Source: Kineosporia sp. NBRC 101731 (GTDB lineage Bacteria; Actinomycetota; Actinomycetes; Actinomycetales; Kineosporiaceae). Taken from it: a stretch of 64,000 nt of DNA. The notes under the pieces are model-generated. The model saw only the letters and a program-made list of their open reading frames with translations, was not told the origin of the DNA and ran no database searches. Location: assembly GCF_030269305.1 (NCBI RefSeq), contig NZ_BSTC01000001.1, positions 1,501,467-1,565,466 on the forward strand, written 5' to 3'. The position numbers and the translations under genes were made by a program. The first letter of the stretch is position 1. Each line of letters opens with the position of its first letter. Positions 4,744 through 58,410 of this stretch are shown here, piece after piece.

Positions 4744-6876
<2,133 letters not shown>

Positions 6877-8213: not shown

Positions 8214-9683
8214 ATGAGCACCGAGCACGGCTGGCGGTTCGACGCCGCGGCGGCCCCGCACCGGCTCCTGCCCTCGGTCCGGGCCCGGTCCACGGTCTCG
8301 GCCGTGCTGGTGGTCGGGCTGGGCCTGACGCTGGCGGGTGGGCTGATCTTCTACGTGCTGCAGCGCAGTCTGATCGGCGGGCTGAACCGGGCGGCGGACG
8401 CGCGGGTCAGCGAGGTCGCCGGGCAGCTGGAGCTGATCGGCGAGGGAGACCTGGACACCCAGCTGAAGAAGGAGCAGAACCAGCGCGACGGCCAGTGGGT
8501 ACAGGTGCTCCGGGGGGATGCGGTGGTGTCGGCCTCCACCTGGGACTCCGACCAGGGGCCGATCACCGGTCTGCGGCCGCAGGTCGGGCAGACGATCCGG
8601 GAGGAGGCCGGGCTGCTCAAGATTCTCGACACCACCCGGCCGTTCCTCGTGGTCACGCGCGGGGTGGACTACGACGGCAACACCGACACGATCATCGTGG
8701 CCACGTTCTACTCCGGTCAGCGCGACACCGTGCTCAAGATGCTGCTGGTCCTCGGGGTCTCGTTCCCGTTGCTGCTGGCCGCTCTCGGGGCGCTGGTCTG
8801 GGTGATGCTCGGGCGGGCGCTGCGGCCGGTGGAGGAGATCCGCGCGCGGGTGGCGCGGGTCGACGAGCGGGACCTGGACGACCGGGTGCCCGTGCCGCCG
8901 ACGCGCGACGAGATCGCCCGGCTGGCGGTCACGATGAACGAGATGCTCGACCGTCTCCAGGCGGCGCAGAAGGCCCAGCGGCAGTTCGTCTCCGACGCCA
9001 GTCACGAGCTGCGCAGCCCTCTGGCCACCCTCTCGGCCACGCTCGAGGTGGTCGATTCCGACGTCAGTGGCCGGGCCTGGGCCGAACTGCGGCCGGTGCT
9101 GCAGAACGAGACCGAGCGGATGGGCGTGCTGGTGCAGAACCTGCTACTGCTGGCCCGGGCCGACGACCAGGGCCTGAAGATCGTGTCGGTCGAGGTGGAC
9201 CTGGACGACCTGGTGATGGAGGAGGCCCGGCGTCTGCGGTCCTCGTCCTCGTTGGAGGTGCCGCTCTCGGTGGTGCCGGTGCGCATCCTCGGCGACCCGT
9301 ACAAGCTCGGCCAGGTGCTGCGGAACCTCGTCGACAACGCCACCCGGTACGCGCAGTCCACGGTCGCGCTGACCGTCACGACGGCCGGGACGACGGCGCT
9401 GATCATGGTGGACGACGACGGCCCGGGGATCGCTCCGGGCGACCGGGACCGGGTGTTCGAGCGTTTCGTGCGGCTGGACGAGAGCCGCGACCGGGCCAGT
9501 GGGGGAGCGGGTCTGGGACTGCCGATCGTGCGCGAGGTGGTGCGCGGCCATCACGGTGACATCGCGGTCGGCGTCTCGCCCTACGGCGGCGCCCGGTTCC
9601 AGGTGCAGCTGCCGATCACGATCGACCAGGCCGCCGGGCTGCTGCCCGGTGAGACCGGCGAGATCCCCGTACTGGGCTCCTGA
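8214..9683 (+). CDS. Sensor histidine kinase (OmpR-type partner)
   Basis: 489 residues from the ATG at 8214. Layout: short cytoplasmic N-terminus, first membrane helix about residues 28-52, extracytoplasmic region of about 130 residues, second membrane helix (MLLVLGVSFPLLLAALGALVWVMLG), HAMP domain, HisKA with phosphorylatable His in SDASHELRSPLATL, and an HATPase with NLVDNATRYA and DDDGPGIAPGDRDRVFERF. The signal sensed is unknown. Its stop abuts the stop of the response regulator on the other strand, so the likely cognate pair is convergent rather than an operon. Confidence 0.93.
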   Translation: MSTEHGWRFDAAAAPHRLLPSVRARSTVSAVLVVGLGLTLAGGLIFYVLQRSLIGGLNRAADARVSEVAGQLELIGEGDLDTQLKKEQNQRDGQWVQVLRGDAVVSASTWDSDQGPITGLRPQVGQTIREEAGLLKILDTTRPFLVVTRGVDYDGNTDTIIVATFYSGQRDTVLKMLLVLGVSFPLLLAALGALVWVMLGRALRPVEEIRARVARVDERDLDDRVPVPPTRDEIARLAVTMNEMLDRLQAAQKAQRQFVSDASHELRSPLATLSATLEVVDSDVSGRAWAELRPVLQNETERMGVLVQNLLLLARADDQGLKIVSVEVDLDDLVMEEARRLRSSSSLEVPLSVVPVRILGDPYKLGQVLRNLVDNATRYAQSTVALTVTTAGTTALIMVDDDGPGIAPGDRDRVFERFVRLDESRDRASGGAGLGLPIVREVVRGHHGDIAVGVSPYGGARFQVQLPITIDQAAGLLPGETGEIPVLGS

Positions 9684-34805: not shown

Positions 34806-34888
34806 CGTGATCATGCAAAACCTCCCCGGCGTTCTAGAACTCCTTCCTGGGTAGTTCTAGAACTCTGGGGAGGTTTTGCATGATCACG
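34806..34888. repeat. Palindromic repeat copy 1 (bidirectional terminator-like)
   Basis: Left arm 34806-34840 and right arm 34854-34888 are inverted repeats matching at 33 of 35 positions, with a 13-nt loop. Each arm runs CGTGATCATGCAAAACCTCC, then CC, a variable pair, and GTTCTAGAAC. The inner GC stem is followed by TTTTGC on both strands, so it can end transcription from both neighbours (MMPL and gntR, convergent). Nearly identical copies lie at 37052 and 58316. Confidence 0.93.
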
Positions 34889-36991: not shown

Positions 36992-37051
36992 GGCGGTAGG
37001 TGATGGCGCATCCTGCGTCGTGAATGGCGAGAGCGGCGCCAAACCTTCTTC

Positions 37052-37134
37052 GTGATCATGCAAAACCTCCCCGGCGTTCTAGAACTGTCCGACCAAGAGT
37101 TCTAGAACTCTGGGGAGGTTTTGCATGATCACGA
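37052..37134. repeat. Palindromic repeat copy 2 (bidirectional terminator-like)
   Basis: Arms 37052-37086 and 37100-37134 have the same sequences as copy 1, with a different 13-nt loop (TGTCCGACCAAGA). It lies between the convergent GH16 and antiporter genes, 60 nt after one stop and 17 nt after the other. Arm identity with changing loop sequence shows that copies share a common origin, or are under constraint, specifically in the arms. Confidence 0.93.
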
Positions 37135-37151
37135 ACAGAAGGAGGGGCGGG

Positions 37152-41572: not shown

Positions 41573-42160
41573 ATGGTGAACCTGACCCGGATCTACACGC
41601 GGACCGGCGACGACGGCACGACCGCGCTGGGCGACTTCAGCCGGACGTCGAAGAATGATCCGCGGCTGATCGCCTATGCCGACTGCGACGAGGCGAACAG
41701 CGCTCTCGGCGTGGCGCTCGCGGTCGGTGCCCTGGACGACCGGATCGCCTCGCTGCTGCTGAGGGTGCAGAACGAGTTGTTCGACGTGGGCTCCGACCTG
41801 TGCGTACCCCTGGCCCAGGCCCCGAAGTACCCGCCCCTGCGGGTGACCGCCGACTACGTCGACCGCCTCGAGGCCGCCTGCGACGAGTGGAACGAGAACC
41901 TTCCGGCCCTGCGCTCGTTCATCCTGCCCGGTGGCTCCCCGGCCTCGGCCTACCTGCACGTGGCCCGCACGGTGACGCGGCGGGCCGAGCGTTCGGTGTG
42001 GGCGGCGCTGGAGGCCCACGGCACCTCGACCGACGGCGGGGTCAACCCCATCACCGCGAGGTACCTGAACCGCCTGAGCGACCTGTTGTTCATCCTGTGC
42101 CGCGTGGTCAACGTGGACGCGGGTGGGGACGTGCTGTGGGTGCCGGGCGGGGAACGTTAG
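41573..42160 (+). CDS. PduO-type ATP:cob(I)alamin adenosyltransferase
   Basis: 195 residues. Transfers the adenosyl group of ATP to cob(I)alamin to form coenzyme B12. N-terminal [20 protein letters not shown] is the ATP-binding signature of PduO/MMAB enzymes, and the C-terminal [18 protein letters not shown] is also conserved. It serves the three AdoCbl proteins of this window (MutAB, Ecm), the latter lying just downstream. It is divergent from murA. Confidence 0.94.
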
Positions 42161-42173
42161 GTCCCCCCTCCCT

Positions 42174-42243
42174 TTGTTCGTGATCATGCAAATCCCCCAG
42201 CCTTCGGCCGGGAGGTGCCCCCACTCCCCGGAGTTCTAGAACT
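42174..42243 (+). repeat. Left 70-nt inverted repeat arm
   Basis: Begins TTGTTCGTGATCATGCAAAT and ends GGAGTTCTAGAACT. It starts 13 nt after the adenosyltransferase stop codon and is identical to the complement of 43298-43367. Confidence 0.95.
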
Positions 42244-42255
42244 CCGAGACCCGAC

Positions 42256-42285
42256 TTATCCACAGCCACCACCGCCTGTGGACAA
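42256..42285. promoter_or_regulatory. Inverted pair of DnaA-box sequences
   Basis: TTATCCACA (42256-42264, the E. coli consensus DnaA box) and TGTGGACAA (42277-42285, complement of TTGTCCACA, the actinobacterial consensus) face each other across 12 nt. They lie between the left repeat arm and the DUF559 start. They may bind DnaA or be an operator for the gene's own winged-helix domain. No other such pair was seen in the window. Confidence 0.6.
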
Positions 42286-42324
42286 CAAAATCCGCCTCGG
42301 GAGCAAGATGGGCATGCTCGCCCC

Positions 42325-43284
42325 ATGCCTCCTACCCACCCGCCGACCCTCGTCTGGAGACGCCAACTCGAGACCTGCTTCGGCGCCGATCCCTTCACGT
42401 CAGGAGAGGCGCTGAGGCTGGGTATCACCTACTCCCGCCTGAACAGGCTTCTGGCATCGGGGCTTCTCGCCCGAGGCCTGCACGGCGTATATCGACTGCA
42501 CGAGATGCCGTCGCTCCTGATGGCCCGGGCGCAGGAAGCCACCACCAGAATTCCCGGCGCCGTGATCGCCCGGCGAACGAGCGCCTGGTTCCTGGGTGAA
42601 GATGCCAGACCCCCGGCCGAAAAAGCTGAACTACCGATCGATTGCGTCGTCCCCCGGGGACGAATGCCCAATCGAAGCAACGGCATTCATTGCTATCAGT
42701 CAGATCTGACACCTGAGGACATCACCCGCATCGGCACCGTTCCCTGTACGACGCCGGCCCGGACCGCAGCTGACCTGCTCCGCTGGGCGCCACCCCACAT
42801 GGCACTGGCCTGTGTCGACCAGATGGCGCGCTCGGGCATCGTCACTTCCACTGAACTCAATCAGGTACTGGCCCGCTGGCCGGGTGAGCGAAACGTACGC
42901 CGCGCCCGCCGGCTCGTCTCGTTCCTGGATCCGCTGTCGGAGTCGTACGGGGAGAGTTGGCTACGACTTCGAATACTGGACGCAGGATTTCCGGCGCCTG
43001 AGGCGCAGATCCCGATCCTGAACGACCACGGCAGAGTTGTCTACCGCCTCGATCTCGGTTGGCGCCGGTCACGACTGGCGATCGAGTACGACGGCGAGGA
43101 ATTCCACGCGAGTCCTCGCCAGGTCGCCGCCGACCGGCGCCGTCGTGAAGATCTGCGAGTGCGGTTCGGCTGGGAGGTCATCGGTGTGGGGCGGGGCGAG
43201 GTGCTCGGTTCCAGCCTCGCCCTGGAGCGTGGTGTCGGAGAACTTCTCAGCCTGGAGCCCACGATTCGACGGCGGTCATGGTGA
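42325..43284 (+). CDS. DUF559/Vsr-like nuclease with AbiEi-type winged helix
   Basis: 319 residues. The N-terminal 1-60 resembles the AbiEi antitoxin winged helix (FTSGEALRLGITYSRLNRLL, ASGLLARGLHGVYRL). The C-terminal 205-290 is a DUF559, Vsr-like PD-(D/E)xK fold: E210 (GESWLRL), D243 (RLDLGW), E254-Y-D256 in AIEYDGEEFHA and H261. Base composition at third positions is less GC-biased than in neighbours, suggesting transfer. No toxin partner is adjacent. It is flanked by 70-nt inverted repeats, so it may act on or travel with them. Biological role is unknown; a single-strand nick or hairpin cleavage is speculation. Confidence 0.85.
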   Translation: MPPTHPPTLVWRRQLETCFGADPFTSGEALRLGITYSRLNRLLASGLLARGLHGVYRLHEMPSLLMARAQEATTRIPGAVIARRTSAWFLGEDARPPAEKAELPIDCVVPRGRMPNRSNGIHCYQSDLTPEDITRIGTVPCTTPARTAADLLRWAPPHMALACVDQMARSGIVTSTELNQVLARWPGERNVRRARRLVSFLDPLSESYGESWLRLRILDAGFPAPEAQIPILNDHGRVVYRLDLGWRRSRLAIEYDGEEFHASPRQVAADRRRREDLRVRFGWEVIGVGRGEVLGSSLALERGVGELLSLEPTIRRRSW

Positions 43285-43297
43285 CACCATGCCGGAC

Positions 43298-43367
43298 AGT
43301 TCTAGAACTCCGGGGAGTGGGGGCACCTCCCGGCCGAAGGCTGGGGGATTTGCATGATCACGAACAA
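43298..43367 (-). repeat. Right 70-nt inverted repeat arm
   Basis: Exact reverse complement of the left arm. It begins 14 nt after the DUF559 stop and ends 11 nt before the ecm stop codon, so it separates convergent genes, as do the stand-alone palindromes. Confidence 0.95.
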
Positions 43368-43378
43368 GGGGGGGTTCT

Positions 43379-45379
43379 CTACGTGGGGAGGTGGTGGGCC
43401 TTGCGGATGTGGGTGACGAAGTGGTTCATCATGGCGGTGAGGTCTATGTCCCTGGGGGTGAAGACCTCGGAAACGCCTTGAGACAGCAGCTTTTGCTGGT
43501 CGGCTTCGGGGATGATGCCGCCGACGATCACGGGGATGTCGCCGGCCCCGGCCTCGGCGAGGCCGCGCAGGACTTCGGGCACGACCTCGAGGTGGGAGCC
43601 GGAGAGCACGGAGAGGCCGATAGCGTGAACGTCCTCGGCCACGGCGGCGTCGACGATCTGGGTCGGGGTGAGGCGGATGCCCTGGTAGATCACCTCGAAA
43701 CCGGCGTCGCGGGCCCGCACCGCCACCTGCTCGGCGCCGTTGGAATGGCCGTCCAGTCCGGGCTTCCCGATCAGCAGGCGCAGGTGGGCACCGATGTCCG
43801 AGCCGGTCGTGAGGACGCGTTCCCGCACCTGGGTCAGGAGAGGCCCGGTTCCCGAGGGGGAGACGGCGGACGAGACCCCGGTCGGGGCCCGGTATTCGCC
43901 GAACACCGCGCGCAGGGCAGACGACCATTCGCCGGTGGTGACGCCCGCCCGGGCGCACTCCAGGCTGGCGTTCATGAGATTGGCCGAGCCGGAAGCATCT
44001 TCACGGAGGCGTTGGAGAGCCGCGGCGACGGCGGCCGGGTCCCGCGCGGCCCGCCACTGCCGGACGGCCTGCACCGCAGCGCTCTCCACGGCCGGATCAA
44101 CTGTCTGAAAGGCGGTTTCGAGATCGGCGGTGAGAGGACTGGGCTCGGTGCTGGTGAAGCGGTTCACTCCGACCACCACGTCCTCGCCCGCCTCGATGCG
44201 TACCCGCCGGGCGGTGTGCGAGGAGACCAGCGCCGACTTCAGGTATCCGGACTCGACGGCCGCGATCGCCCCACCCATCTCCGCGACCCGGGCCATCTCG
44301 AGGCGGGCTCCCTCGACGATCGAGGCGACCTTCGCCGCGACCACCGGGCTGCCGTCGAAAAGGTCTTCGTACTCCAGCAGATCGGACTCGTGGGCCAGTA
44401 CCTGCTGCAGGCGGAGCGACCATTGCTGGTCCCACGGCCGGGGCAGACCCAGAGCCTCGTTCCAGGCCGGCAGCTGAACGGCCCGCGCCCGCGCGCCCTT
44501 CGACAGGGTGACCGCCAGCATCTCGAGAACGATCCGCTGCACGTTGTTCTCGGGCTGGGCCTCGGTCAGGCCGAGCGAGTTGACCTGGACTCCGTACCGG
44601 AACCGCCGCTGACGCGCGTCCTCAATTCCGTATCGTTCTCTGGTCATCACGTCCCACAGGGTGACGAACGCCCGCATCTTGCACATCTCCTCGACGAAAC
44701 GCACACCGGCGTTGACGAAGAAGGAGATGCGCTGCACCACGTCGCCGAACCGCTCCGGCGGCACCTGCCCGCTGTCGCGCACCGCGTCGAGCACCGCGAT
44801 CGCCGTGCTCAGGGCGAACGCCACCTCCTGCACCGGCGTGGCCCCGGCCTCCTGCAGGTGATAGCTACAGATGTTCACCGGGTTCCACTGCGGCATCGCC
44901 GAGACCGTGTAGGCGATCGTGTCGGTGGTCAGGCGCAGGCTCGGGCCGGGCGGGAAGATGTAGGTGCCGCGGCTCAGGTACTCCTTGACGATGTCGTTCT
45001 GGGTGGTCCCGGTCAGCTCACGCAGCACGTCTTCCGCAGCGACAGAGGGGTTCTGGGCCAGCGCCACCTCCTGGTAGAGCGCCAGGAGCCACATCGCCGG
45101 GGCATTGATCGTCATCGACGTGTTCATCCGGGTCAGCGGGATGCCGTCGAAAAGCGCGGTCAGGTCACCGAGATGCTGAATCGGCACCCCGACCTTGCCG
45201 ACCTCGCCGCGCGCCAGTTCGTCATCGGCGTCGTAACCGGTCTGGGTGGGCAGGTCGAAGGCCACCGACAGCCCGGTCTGCCCCTTGTCGAGGTTGCGCC
45301 GGTACAGCGCGTTGGACTCCGCCGGGCTGGAATGGCCCGCGTAGGTCCGCATCACCCACGGCCGGTCGCGCTCACTCAT
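43379..45379 (-). CDS. ecm: Ethylmalonyl-CoA mutase (MeaA type)
   Basis: 666 residues. AdoCbl-dependent isomerase converting (2R)-ethylmalonyl-CoA to methylsuccinyl-CoA in the ethylmalonyl-CoA pathway. The barrel domain has GHSSPAESNALYRRNLDKGQ and [19 protein letters not shown]; the C-terminal B12 domain has KPGLDGHSNGAEQ with His545 as axial ligand. The N-terminus starting MSERDRPWVMRTYAG and the GLDGHSNGAEQ form distinguish it from methylmalonyl-CoA and isobutyryl-CoA mutases. The adenosyltransferase gene lies just across the inverted-repeat element. Confidence 0.9.
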   Translation of the reverse strand: MSERDRPWVMRTYAGHSSPAESNALYRRNLDKGQTGLSVAFDLPTQTGYDADDELARGEVGKVGVPIQHLGDLTALFDGIPLTRMNTSMTINAPAMWLLALYQEVALAQNPSVAAEDVLRELTGTTQNDIVKEYLSRGTYIFPPGPSLRLTTDTIAYTVSAMPQWNPVNICSYHLQEAGATPVQEVAFALSTAIAVLDAVRDSGQVPPERFGDVVQRISFFVNAGVRFVEEMCKMRAFVTLWDVMTRERYGIEDARQRRFRYGVQVNSLGLTEAQPENNVQRIVLEMLAVTLSKGARARAVQLPAWNEALGLPRPWDQQWSLRLQQVLAHESDLLEYEDLFDGSPVVAAKVASIVEGARLEMARVAEMGGAIAAVESGYLKSALVSSHTARRVRIEAGEDVVVGVNRFTSTEPSPLTADLETAFQTVDPAVESAAVQAVRQWRAARDPAAVAAALQRLREDASGSANLMNASLECARAGVTTGEWSSALRAVFGEYRAPTGVSSAVSPSGTGPLLTQVRERVLTTGSDIGAHLRLLIGKPGLDGHSNGAEQVAVRARDAGFEVIYQGIRLTPTQIVDAAVAEDVHAIGLSVLSGSHLEVVPEVLRGLAEAGAGDIPVIVGGIIPEADQQKLLSQGVSEVFTPRDIDLTAMMNHFVTHIRKAHHLPT

Positions 45380-51839: not shown

Positions 51840-51934
51840 GGTCGACGAGCCTAGCCTGAACCCGGACACCGGATGGGCGACCACCCTGACACGCGATGGA
51901 TGACCACCCTCGCCCCGTCCCCATCCAACCCCTC

Positions 51935-51950
51935 CATGATCACGAACAGA
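51935..51950. repeat. Half copy of the palindromic repeat end
   Basis: CATGATCACGAACAGA is identical to the outer right end of copy 2 (37125-37140) and is followed by a G run as in the right arm of the 42174 element. No matching left end or TTCTAGAA core is nearby. It lies in a divergent gap (nucS/padR), unlike the intact copies. Likely a degenerate remnant. Confidence 0.6.
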
Positions 51951-58286: not shown

Positions 58287-58315
58287 CGCGCCCCCTCAAC
58301 TCCAAAGCCTTCGTT

Positions 58316-58399
58316 CGTGATCATGCAAAACCTCCCCGGAGTTCTAGAACTGTGAGTTCGAAGAGTTCTAGAACACTGGGGAGGTTTTGCATGATCACG
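58316..58399. repeat. Palindromic repeat copy 3 (bidirectional terminator-like)
   Basis: Arms 58316-58350 and 58365-58399 match at 33 of 35 positions, loop of 14 nt (TGTGAGTTCGAAGA). Arms are the same as in copies 1 and 2 apart from the variable two or three positions before the TTCTAGAA core. It separates the convergent sigma and DUF952 genes by 30 and 12 nt. Confidence 0.93.
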
Positions 58400-58410
58400 A
58401 CGGGGTTGGG

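Follow-up and report, generated by a model that had tools for sequence, protein, structure and literature searches.

A gene for an AbiEi–Vsr-like protein enclosed by inverted repeats, and the dispersed palindromes that accompany it in Kineosporia and other Actinobacteria

Why should a nuclease-like gene lie between two exact inverted repeats whose ends recur, without any gene, elsewhere in the same genome? The question is raised by a locus at 42174-43367 of a 64,000-nucleotide stretch (the window) of the genome of Kineosporia sp. NBRC 101731, where a gene for a 319-residue AbiEi-like and Vsr-like protein is bracketed in this way. An earlier note, made from the sequence alone, regarded the locus as the gene-bearing member of a family whose free palindromes are non-autonomous, a layout resembling REP repeats and their RAYT protein, and this proposal is supported both by the recurrence of the enclosure at homologous loci and by the tie between copy number and gene. 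We consider it probable that the locus belongs to a system of dispersed repeats served by a protein of its own, REP/RAYT-like in organisation but with a non-homologous enzyme. The architecture of the element, the dependence of repeat number on the cognate gene, the co-divergence of repeat and protein, the differences between sister species, the inversion of the gene and the purifying selection acting on it are observed in the comparisons that follow.

Computation of inverted repeats recovered the 70-nt exact arms that had been described around the gene, which start with TTGTTCGTG, end with AGAACT and lie within a wider pair (42167-42243 and 43298-43374; 77 nt, 97% complementary, spacing 1054 nt). 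The left arm is indeed followed by the dyad TTATCCACAG / CTGTGGACAA, ahead of the gene; this dyad and the core TCCACA[AG] are DnaA-box-like. The arm ends are common to three free palindromes of the window, as had been stated, although a 29-nt GC-rich module found in the arms of the gene-bearing element is missing from all three. The features of the element are as follows.

42174..42243, forward strand: left arm, a half-palindrome with the iteron GTGATCATGCAAA pointing inward (exact 70-nt inverted repeat)
42193..42224, forward strand: 29-nt GC-rich extra module in the left arm, place approximate; second copy at about 43317-43348 in the right arm
42256..42285, unstranded: DnaA-box-like dyad ahead of the gene start (from sequence)
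42325..43284, forward strand: AbiEi-like plus Vsr/I-Bth0305I-like nuclease gene, 319 aa, between the arms (from the open reading frame, profiles and predicted fold)
43298..43367, reverse strand: right arm, exact 70-nt inverted repeat with the left arm

Homologous genes were found to be regularly enclosed by inverted repeats elsewhere, as the note had anticipated, though mostly by a different, cognate repeat. In a set of 52 homologous loci including that of Kineosporia mesophila (52 of 56 were kept, short flanks being dropped), the 300 nt on one side of the gene were compared with the 300 nt on the other, and the longest exact inverted match reached 13 nt or more at 33 loci (median 14.5); of 283 neighbouring genes treated alike, 10 reached that length (median 9). 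A second set, in which 29 of 30 loci were used, our own included, gave an inverted match of that length in 21 (median 16), the proportion among 812 mismatched pairs being 6.4%. Among 89 non-redundant loci, which remained once near-duplicates, loci with short flanks and those with a short or interrupted protein had been dropped, exact matches of at least 13 nt occurred in inverted orientation in 68 and in direct orientation in 16, whereas mismatched flank pairs gave 69 in 2000. Chance pairing of terminators around a gene, tried as an explanation, is ruled out by the neighbour-gene, direct-orientation and mismatched-flank controls.

In many cases each flank is a tandem array whose units recur every 21-22, 31-32 or about 36-45 nt and run forward upstream of the gene but reversed downstream of it (one reading of the flanks used 27 of 30 loci, three having no motif string; L200, among the 27, has only 20 nt downstream). 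As regards enclosure the palindrome-flanked layout holds elsewhere, but in many relatives iterons in series, spaced at about 21-45 nt, stand in place of one long palindrome. Whole palindromes occur on each side of the gene at L020, L037 and L055, and upstream of the nuclease in genomes G456 and G472, while at nine GATCATG-type loci the iterons point inward, save for one near-match in L246. L055, from a metagenome-assembled genome of the Frankiaceae, has paired ACGATCATGACGTTCGC palindromes around the nuclease (5649-6860) and a solo copy at 8376-8440, past the next stop codon. Of 43 loci that could be scored, 29 have the gene-bearing element between convergent genes, whereas 46 of the 382 adjacent gene pairs in the background are convergent. 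The TCCACA[AG] core is present on either strand within 170 nt upstream at 71 of the 89 loci, with position peaks near -58 and -49, but in only 2 of 89 control windows.

Repeat number tracks the presence of the gene, the relationship predicted at the outset. K. mesophila (G065) carries 260 copies of GTGATCATGCAAA and our genome 298; the four other congeners have none, and when one mismatch is permitted in a 14-mer G121 has three and the remaining three congeners still none. A full-length nuclease homolog is confined to the two high-copy Kineosporia genomes, the other congeners giving weak matches (E >= 3e-9) or none. The same dependence extends beyond Kineosporia to Nocardioides and to the class, with two exceptions (G374 and G396) that are considered below. 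Nine of 296 genomes of the class have at least 20 copies of GTGATCATGCA (413, 384, 328, 106, 90, 45, 35, 28 and 24), the remaining 287 having 11 or fewer; all nine encode a nuclease homolog, compared with 161 of the 296 overall (E <= 1e-30). The nuclease flanks themselves contain GTGATCATGCA in eight of the nine (our own genome, G001, G490, G023, G004, G428, G456 and G472), and those of the ninth, G533, carry mainly the variant TGATCTTGCA.

Nuclease homologs are present in 165 of 196 sampled Nocardioides genomes (E <= 1e-25). The motif TGACCCGCCCGAAA is found in 10 of the 196, namely G391 (134 copies), G226 (132), G199 (82), G353 (69), G198 (60), G374 (34), G396 (8) and three genomes with one or two copies. 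The five nearest nucleases to that of G199 (itself, then 81, 67, 65 and 60%) belong to the same five genomes that hold the most TGACCCGCCCGAAA. The nuclease of G293 is as similar to that of G199 as is the G226 protein; its flanks carry CCGCTGACCCGTCAGAAA, and TGACCCGCCCGAAA is absent from its genome. In a comparison of nuclease-bearing genomes, TGACCCGCCCGAAA flanks the nuclease in two, where it occurs 60 and 82 times, and is absent from 18 others; CCGTTGAGTTG has 51 copies in G203, 23 in G204, 8 in G210, 2 in G207, one in each of three genomes and none in 13. Distant paralogs of the nuclease (L348 in G374; L352 and L355 in G396) have inverted repeats of their own, 26-32 nt long and of other sequence, which suggests several repeat families per genome. 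Many genomes coded f22/g74, of one genus, have up to seven nuclease matches each (seven candidates scored).

Repeat and protein also diverge together. The proportion of locus pairs that share flank 9-mers rises from 0% below 30% protein identity to 61% at 60-95%, and over the 89 loci 9-mer sharing correlates with protein identity (Mantel r 0.40, 0 of 5000 permutations as high). When only one of 17 loci that share a neighbouring gene was kept, r was 0.36 (again 0 of 5000), and 13 of 30 pairs at 60-95% identity shared 9-mers. On a tree of the 89 proteins, flank-motif labels, which were assigned after inspection of the flanks and left 36 loci as "other", change 17 times against 46.2 when shuffled, none of 200 shuffles being as low. 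Several families are represented in the main GATCATG group of this tree, so that the motif goes with the nuclease and not with host taxonomy. Identity within five segments of the protein correlated with shared flank k-mers at r 0.17-0.34, the 43-residue winged helix being lowest; as there was no clear winner, no domain is assigned as reader of the repeat.

The palindrome family in our genome (8.26 Mb in 88 contigs, close to K. mesophila) is not a product of chance, since the 298 copies of GTGATCATGCAAA compare with none when the motif is read backwards; such a count is no control for GTTGAGTTG, which is the same in both directions. A survey of 40 fetched stretches plus the window, with one mismatch permitted, gave 66 clusters, which lie in convergent (28), codirectional (15 and 11) and divergent (8) gaps or were called inside genes (4); by comparison, 54 of 317 intergenic gaps of at least 60 nt in the cluster regions are convergent. 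All gene contexts given here, including the four calls inside genes, come from a home-made gene finder, as do most start codons of the relatives. Many copies begin 9-20 nt past a stop codon. The cluster classes are nested, in that the 29-type consists of TTCGTGATCATGCAAAACCTCCCC and its complement, the 68-type adds a centre containing TTCTAGAA with a variable loop, and the 97-type carries in one of its arms the GC-rich module of 29 nt. Single half-sites account for 14 of the 66 clusters. The arms co-vary (CCTCCCC/GGGGAGG, GTGTCCCC/GGGGACAC and CGTTCCCC/GGGGAACG). A few copies face outward, in the order -+ with 27-37 nt (L064 6059, L066 5774 and L301 2266). On RNA folding the three free palindromes of the window form very stable hairpins (z about -13); no known RNA family reaches its gathering score within 34000-59000.

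34806..34888, unstranded: free palindrome, 68-type, between convergent genes (inverted-repeat search; RNA fold -72.3 kcal/mol, z -12.8)
37049..37135, unstranded: free palindrome, 68-type, between convergent genes (inverted-repeat search and RNA fold)
58315..58400, unstranded: free palindrome, 69-type, between convergent genes; no counterpart in K. mesophila, where the genes abut

Gene-less copies in other genomes were read among the matches listed, the solo loci of G203 and G199 being fetched by pattern. In Nocardioides sp. SLBN-35 (G203) 18 solo sites were read, and every one is an array of the form (+)n centre (-)m, its units 22 nt apart (21 in one) and its start often at a stop codon; 19 of the 20 read in G199 are palindromes. 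In the class genomes G001, G023 and G004 some sites are single half-sites and one site faces outward, and sites in G023 and G004 together lie between convergent genes in 5 of 12 cases. At L121 in G210 an iteron array stands beside a sequence that resembles a group II intron.

The history of the element can be followed in the sister species. Two genes converge on it, and a relic lies further along the window:

41573..42160, forward strand: cobalamin adenosyltransferase gene, its stop 13 nt ahead of the left arm
43379..45379, reverse strand: methylmalonyl-CoA mutase gene, the convergent neighbour
51930..51942, reverse strand: relic half-site with three mismatches; a whole 68-type palindrome in K. 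mesophila (C1:154646)

K. mesophila has a nuclease 92% identical in protein sequence at the same locus and between arms (L001), but the gene is inverted relative to its two flanking genes, the order outside the arms being unchanged, and the 29-nt module is missing from both arms. The perfect identity of the arms had been put down to recent insertion or gene conversion; simple recent insertion does not hold, because the same locus has different arms in K. mesophila, and a concerted change of both arms is indicated instead. G121 lacks the element, its two flanking genes overlapping each other, and provides the empty site at an orthologous locus that had been sought; in the remaining three congeners the locus is rearranged. 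When 25 of our sites in all fetched syntenic pieces were compared, the two arms of the gene being counted as two, 22 were present in K. mesophila and three absent. At the 58315-58400 palindrome about 130 bp are additional relative to K. mesophila. Four of five comparable 97-type sites are of the 68-type there, so that the 29-nt module is itself subject to spread or to copying from one element to another; the module sites are 42193-42224 in the window and L058 6550, L075 6411, L078 6026 and L076 5620. On these alignments the palindromes undergo concerted change and now and then appear or vanish, at a slow rate. As a separate observation, the mutase gene overlaps a long inverted similarity (4956-5265 and 45053-45362, 72%, 40 kb apart), possibly reflecting a paralogous mutase gene near 5 kb.

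What kind of protein accompanies these repeats? In Pfam the window protein matches AbiEi_4 and MTES_1575, the latter under its gathering cut-off, and the DUF559 profile is matched by 11 of 26 aligned members, the window protein not among them; PADLOC AbiEi models match all 26. A structure model (mean predicted local distance difference test, pLDDT, 89.4) retrieved 6y8q for the AbiEi part and 3r3p and 1cw0 for the Vsr-like part, and the whole chain is predicted to be an AbiEi fold (winged helix plus C-terminal domain) fused to a Vsr/I-Bth0305I-like domain. The label "DUF559/Vsr-like" first given to the gene is thus borne out by the predicted fold in its second half, while its first half gives way to the Pfam assignments above. 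A sequence search of solved structures returned only 3hrl (E 0.37), the fold search being more informative, and a BFVD search with the model found DUF559 phage proteins with a low whole-length template modelling (TM) score. Residues E210, E254, D256, H261 and D270, the signature being EYDGEEFH, are invariant over 26 aligned rows and are probably catalytic. No transposase or integrase domain was detected with Pfam, PADLOC, NCBIfam or the fold search, and the protein is not a Y1/HUH (IS200/IS605-like) transposase, the three profile collections giving AbiEi, MTES_1575 and DUF559. Both neighbours of the window gene are metabolic, and no AbiEii-type partner adjoins it. Between our genome and K. mesophila the gene is under purifying selection, since nonsynonymous divergence (dN) is 0.041 and synonymous divergence (dS) 0.227; the values for a neighbouring gene are 0.015 and 0.181.

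A mechanism can be proposed in which each lineage has its cognate iteron (GTGATCATGCA-AA in Kineosporia), arranged head to head in (+)n-centre-(-)m arrays or palindromes, with one or a few copies per genome carrying the AbiEi-Vsr/homing-endonuclease-like gene in the centre and the others gene-less, mostly past stop codons. The AbiEi part may bind paired iterons and the attached nuclease may cut at the iterons or at a target, so that repair of the break from another copy would, in a homing-like manner, copy the element or convert one copy. Such repair could produce concerted change of the arms and inversion of the gene between them, and a cut in an empty gene junction followed by repair would create a new copy; retention past stop codons would reflect selection against damage. 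The protein would then play the part for these iterons that RAYT plays for REPs, and the promoter-proximal DnaA-box-like sites may link its expression to DnaA or replication. Whether the fusion family is a new repeat mobiliser in the full sense, the protein alone spreading, converting and inverting head-to-head iterons by homing-like cutting and repair, with no DDE, HUH, serine or tyrosine recombinase, is to our minds evenly balanced.

Several observations weigh against this account. G374 and G396, with their 34 and 8 copies, have only distant homologs, none at E <= 1e-25 with the G199 query. That 22 of 25 sites are common to K. mesophila at about 93% DNA identity means that spread is slow, the relic at 51930 is plainly a loss in our own lineage, and the other presence/absence differences could also be losses; alignment of three presence/absence sites revealed no clear target-site duplication in any. 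Joint vertical descent would by itself produce part of the co-divergence. Nor is the bias towards convergent genes found everywhere, given the values for G023 and G004 and only 1 of 10 sites in G001. No exact inverted match of 13 nt is found at 21 of the 89 loci, and 17 of the 89 share one upstream gene end and so are not independent; these 17 may be one orthologous insertion, but the other loci lack that neighbour, and an inverted match persists in 53 of the 72 left when they are removed. Finally, the loci were collected via the nuclease, so that the survey covers arrays around this gene family.

A regulatory or termination network is an unlikely alternative, in which a DNA-binding regulator would use sites at gene 3' ends as roadblocks or terminators, and in which ordinary recombination would have multiplied the repeats and selection retained them. 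The hairpin stability of the three free palindromes and the start of many copies 9-20 nt past a stop codon would suit it, and in Streptococcus agalactiae the AbiEi protein represses its own expression by binding at its promoter to inverted repeats, of which 11 bp are exact and the whole extends to 23 bp (PMC3985639). Autoregulation, however, has no need of arrays on the 3' side of the gene as well, the nuclease-like signature conserved in 26 rows is left without explanation, and the four congeners without the gene have no copies and yet keep the neighbouring cobalamin gene.

A role as a nuclease of defence or self-recognition, with the repeats marking the chromosome as self or keeping the enzyme inactive, is improbable. 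The uniform match to PADLOC AbiEi models fits such a role, AbiE being an abortive-infection system (PMC3985639), but the metabolic neighbours and missing AbiEii-type partner do not, and neither the inward layout around the gene nor the inversion and conversion of arms is predicted. Equally doubtful is movement of the repeats by some other transposase with the nuclease gene as passenger. The lack of a transposase or integrase domain and the collection of loci from the nuclease rather than from arrays leave room for this, and we know of no transposition by a Vsr-like enzyme alone; on the other side, the repeat sequence tracks nuclease phylogeny across families and members of this one gene family are found repeatedly between arrays whose sequences are unrelated. 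The other possibility raised early on, chance insertion of an unrelated gene into the loop of a terminator palindrome by recombination, is very improbable: the gene does sit in a palindrome loop and is compositionally odd (GC content at third codon positions 0.72, against 0.94 for a neighbour), but the layout is seen again with unrelated repeats much more often than in three controls, even after removal of the 17 neighbour-sharing loci, and neither this recurrence nor the copy-number tie is explained.

If the REP/RAYT-like interpretation is true, the principle of that system has been invented independently by an unrelated enzyme, a large set of AbiEi/DUF559-like genes acquires a role, the dispersed gene-end repeats of actinobacteria are accounted for, and many natural protein-repeat pairs become available for recognition tests. 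The pattern appears class-wide, involving many soil actinobacteria in which, on the genomes compared, repeat and nuclease seem to change together between species. AbiEi, the Vsr-like fold and REP-like repeats are each known singly, and the system built of them appears new; among the matches listed, judged by title or the start of the abstract and with subscription journals mostly outside, no paper ties AbiEi, DUF559 or MTES_1575 proteins to dispersed repeats.

Among known systems the closest parallels are with REP/RAYT, whose REPs frequently occur in inverted pairs. Two studies describe extragenic palindromes scattered in tens to hundreds of copies (PMC3686654, PMC8266576), an abundance that depends on the cognate RAYT (PMC3686654) and a co-evolved recognition between REP and RAYT (PMC8266576). 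As there, the partner gene at our homologous loci is flanked by cognate repeats, abundance depends on the cognate gene (with the two exceptions G374 and G396), and the repeats are extragenic and palindromic or paired inverted, apart from the 4 of 66 clusters inside genes and the 14 of 66 half-sites. Unlike REP/RAYT, the enzyme is an AbiEi plus Vsr-like nuclease and not a Y1/HUH transposase, and iteron arrays are found, here in Actinobacteria; as the HUH enzyme is absent, the AbiEi-Vsr repeat system is not a member of REP/RAYT. The AbiE type IV toxin-antitoxin shares the predicted AbiEi fold, but here a nuclease-like domain is fused, AbiEii nucleotidyltransferase is missing beside the window gene, and repeats lie on both sides of the gene and genome-wide. 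EDxHD/Vsr-like homing endonucleases such as I-Bth0305I share the predicted Vsr-like fold and conserved acidic and His residues; our gene differs in lying outside any intron or intein, between genes, and in having many gene-less repeat copies. Inverted DNA uptake sequences, which act as terminators and number thousands of copies, are likewise short repeats often found as inverted pairs behind genes, whereas the present repeats number tens to hundreds and are tied to a nuclease gene that they flank on both sides. Finally, miniature inverted-repeat transposable elements (MITEs) have a parent transposon and Tn7 ends have multiple 22-bp sites, and the present system resembles them in having a gene-bearing parent, gene-less relatives with the same inverted ends, and several repeats at each end.
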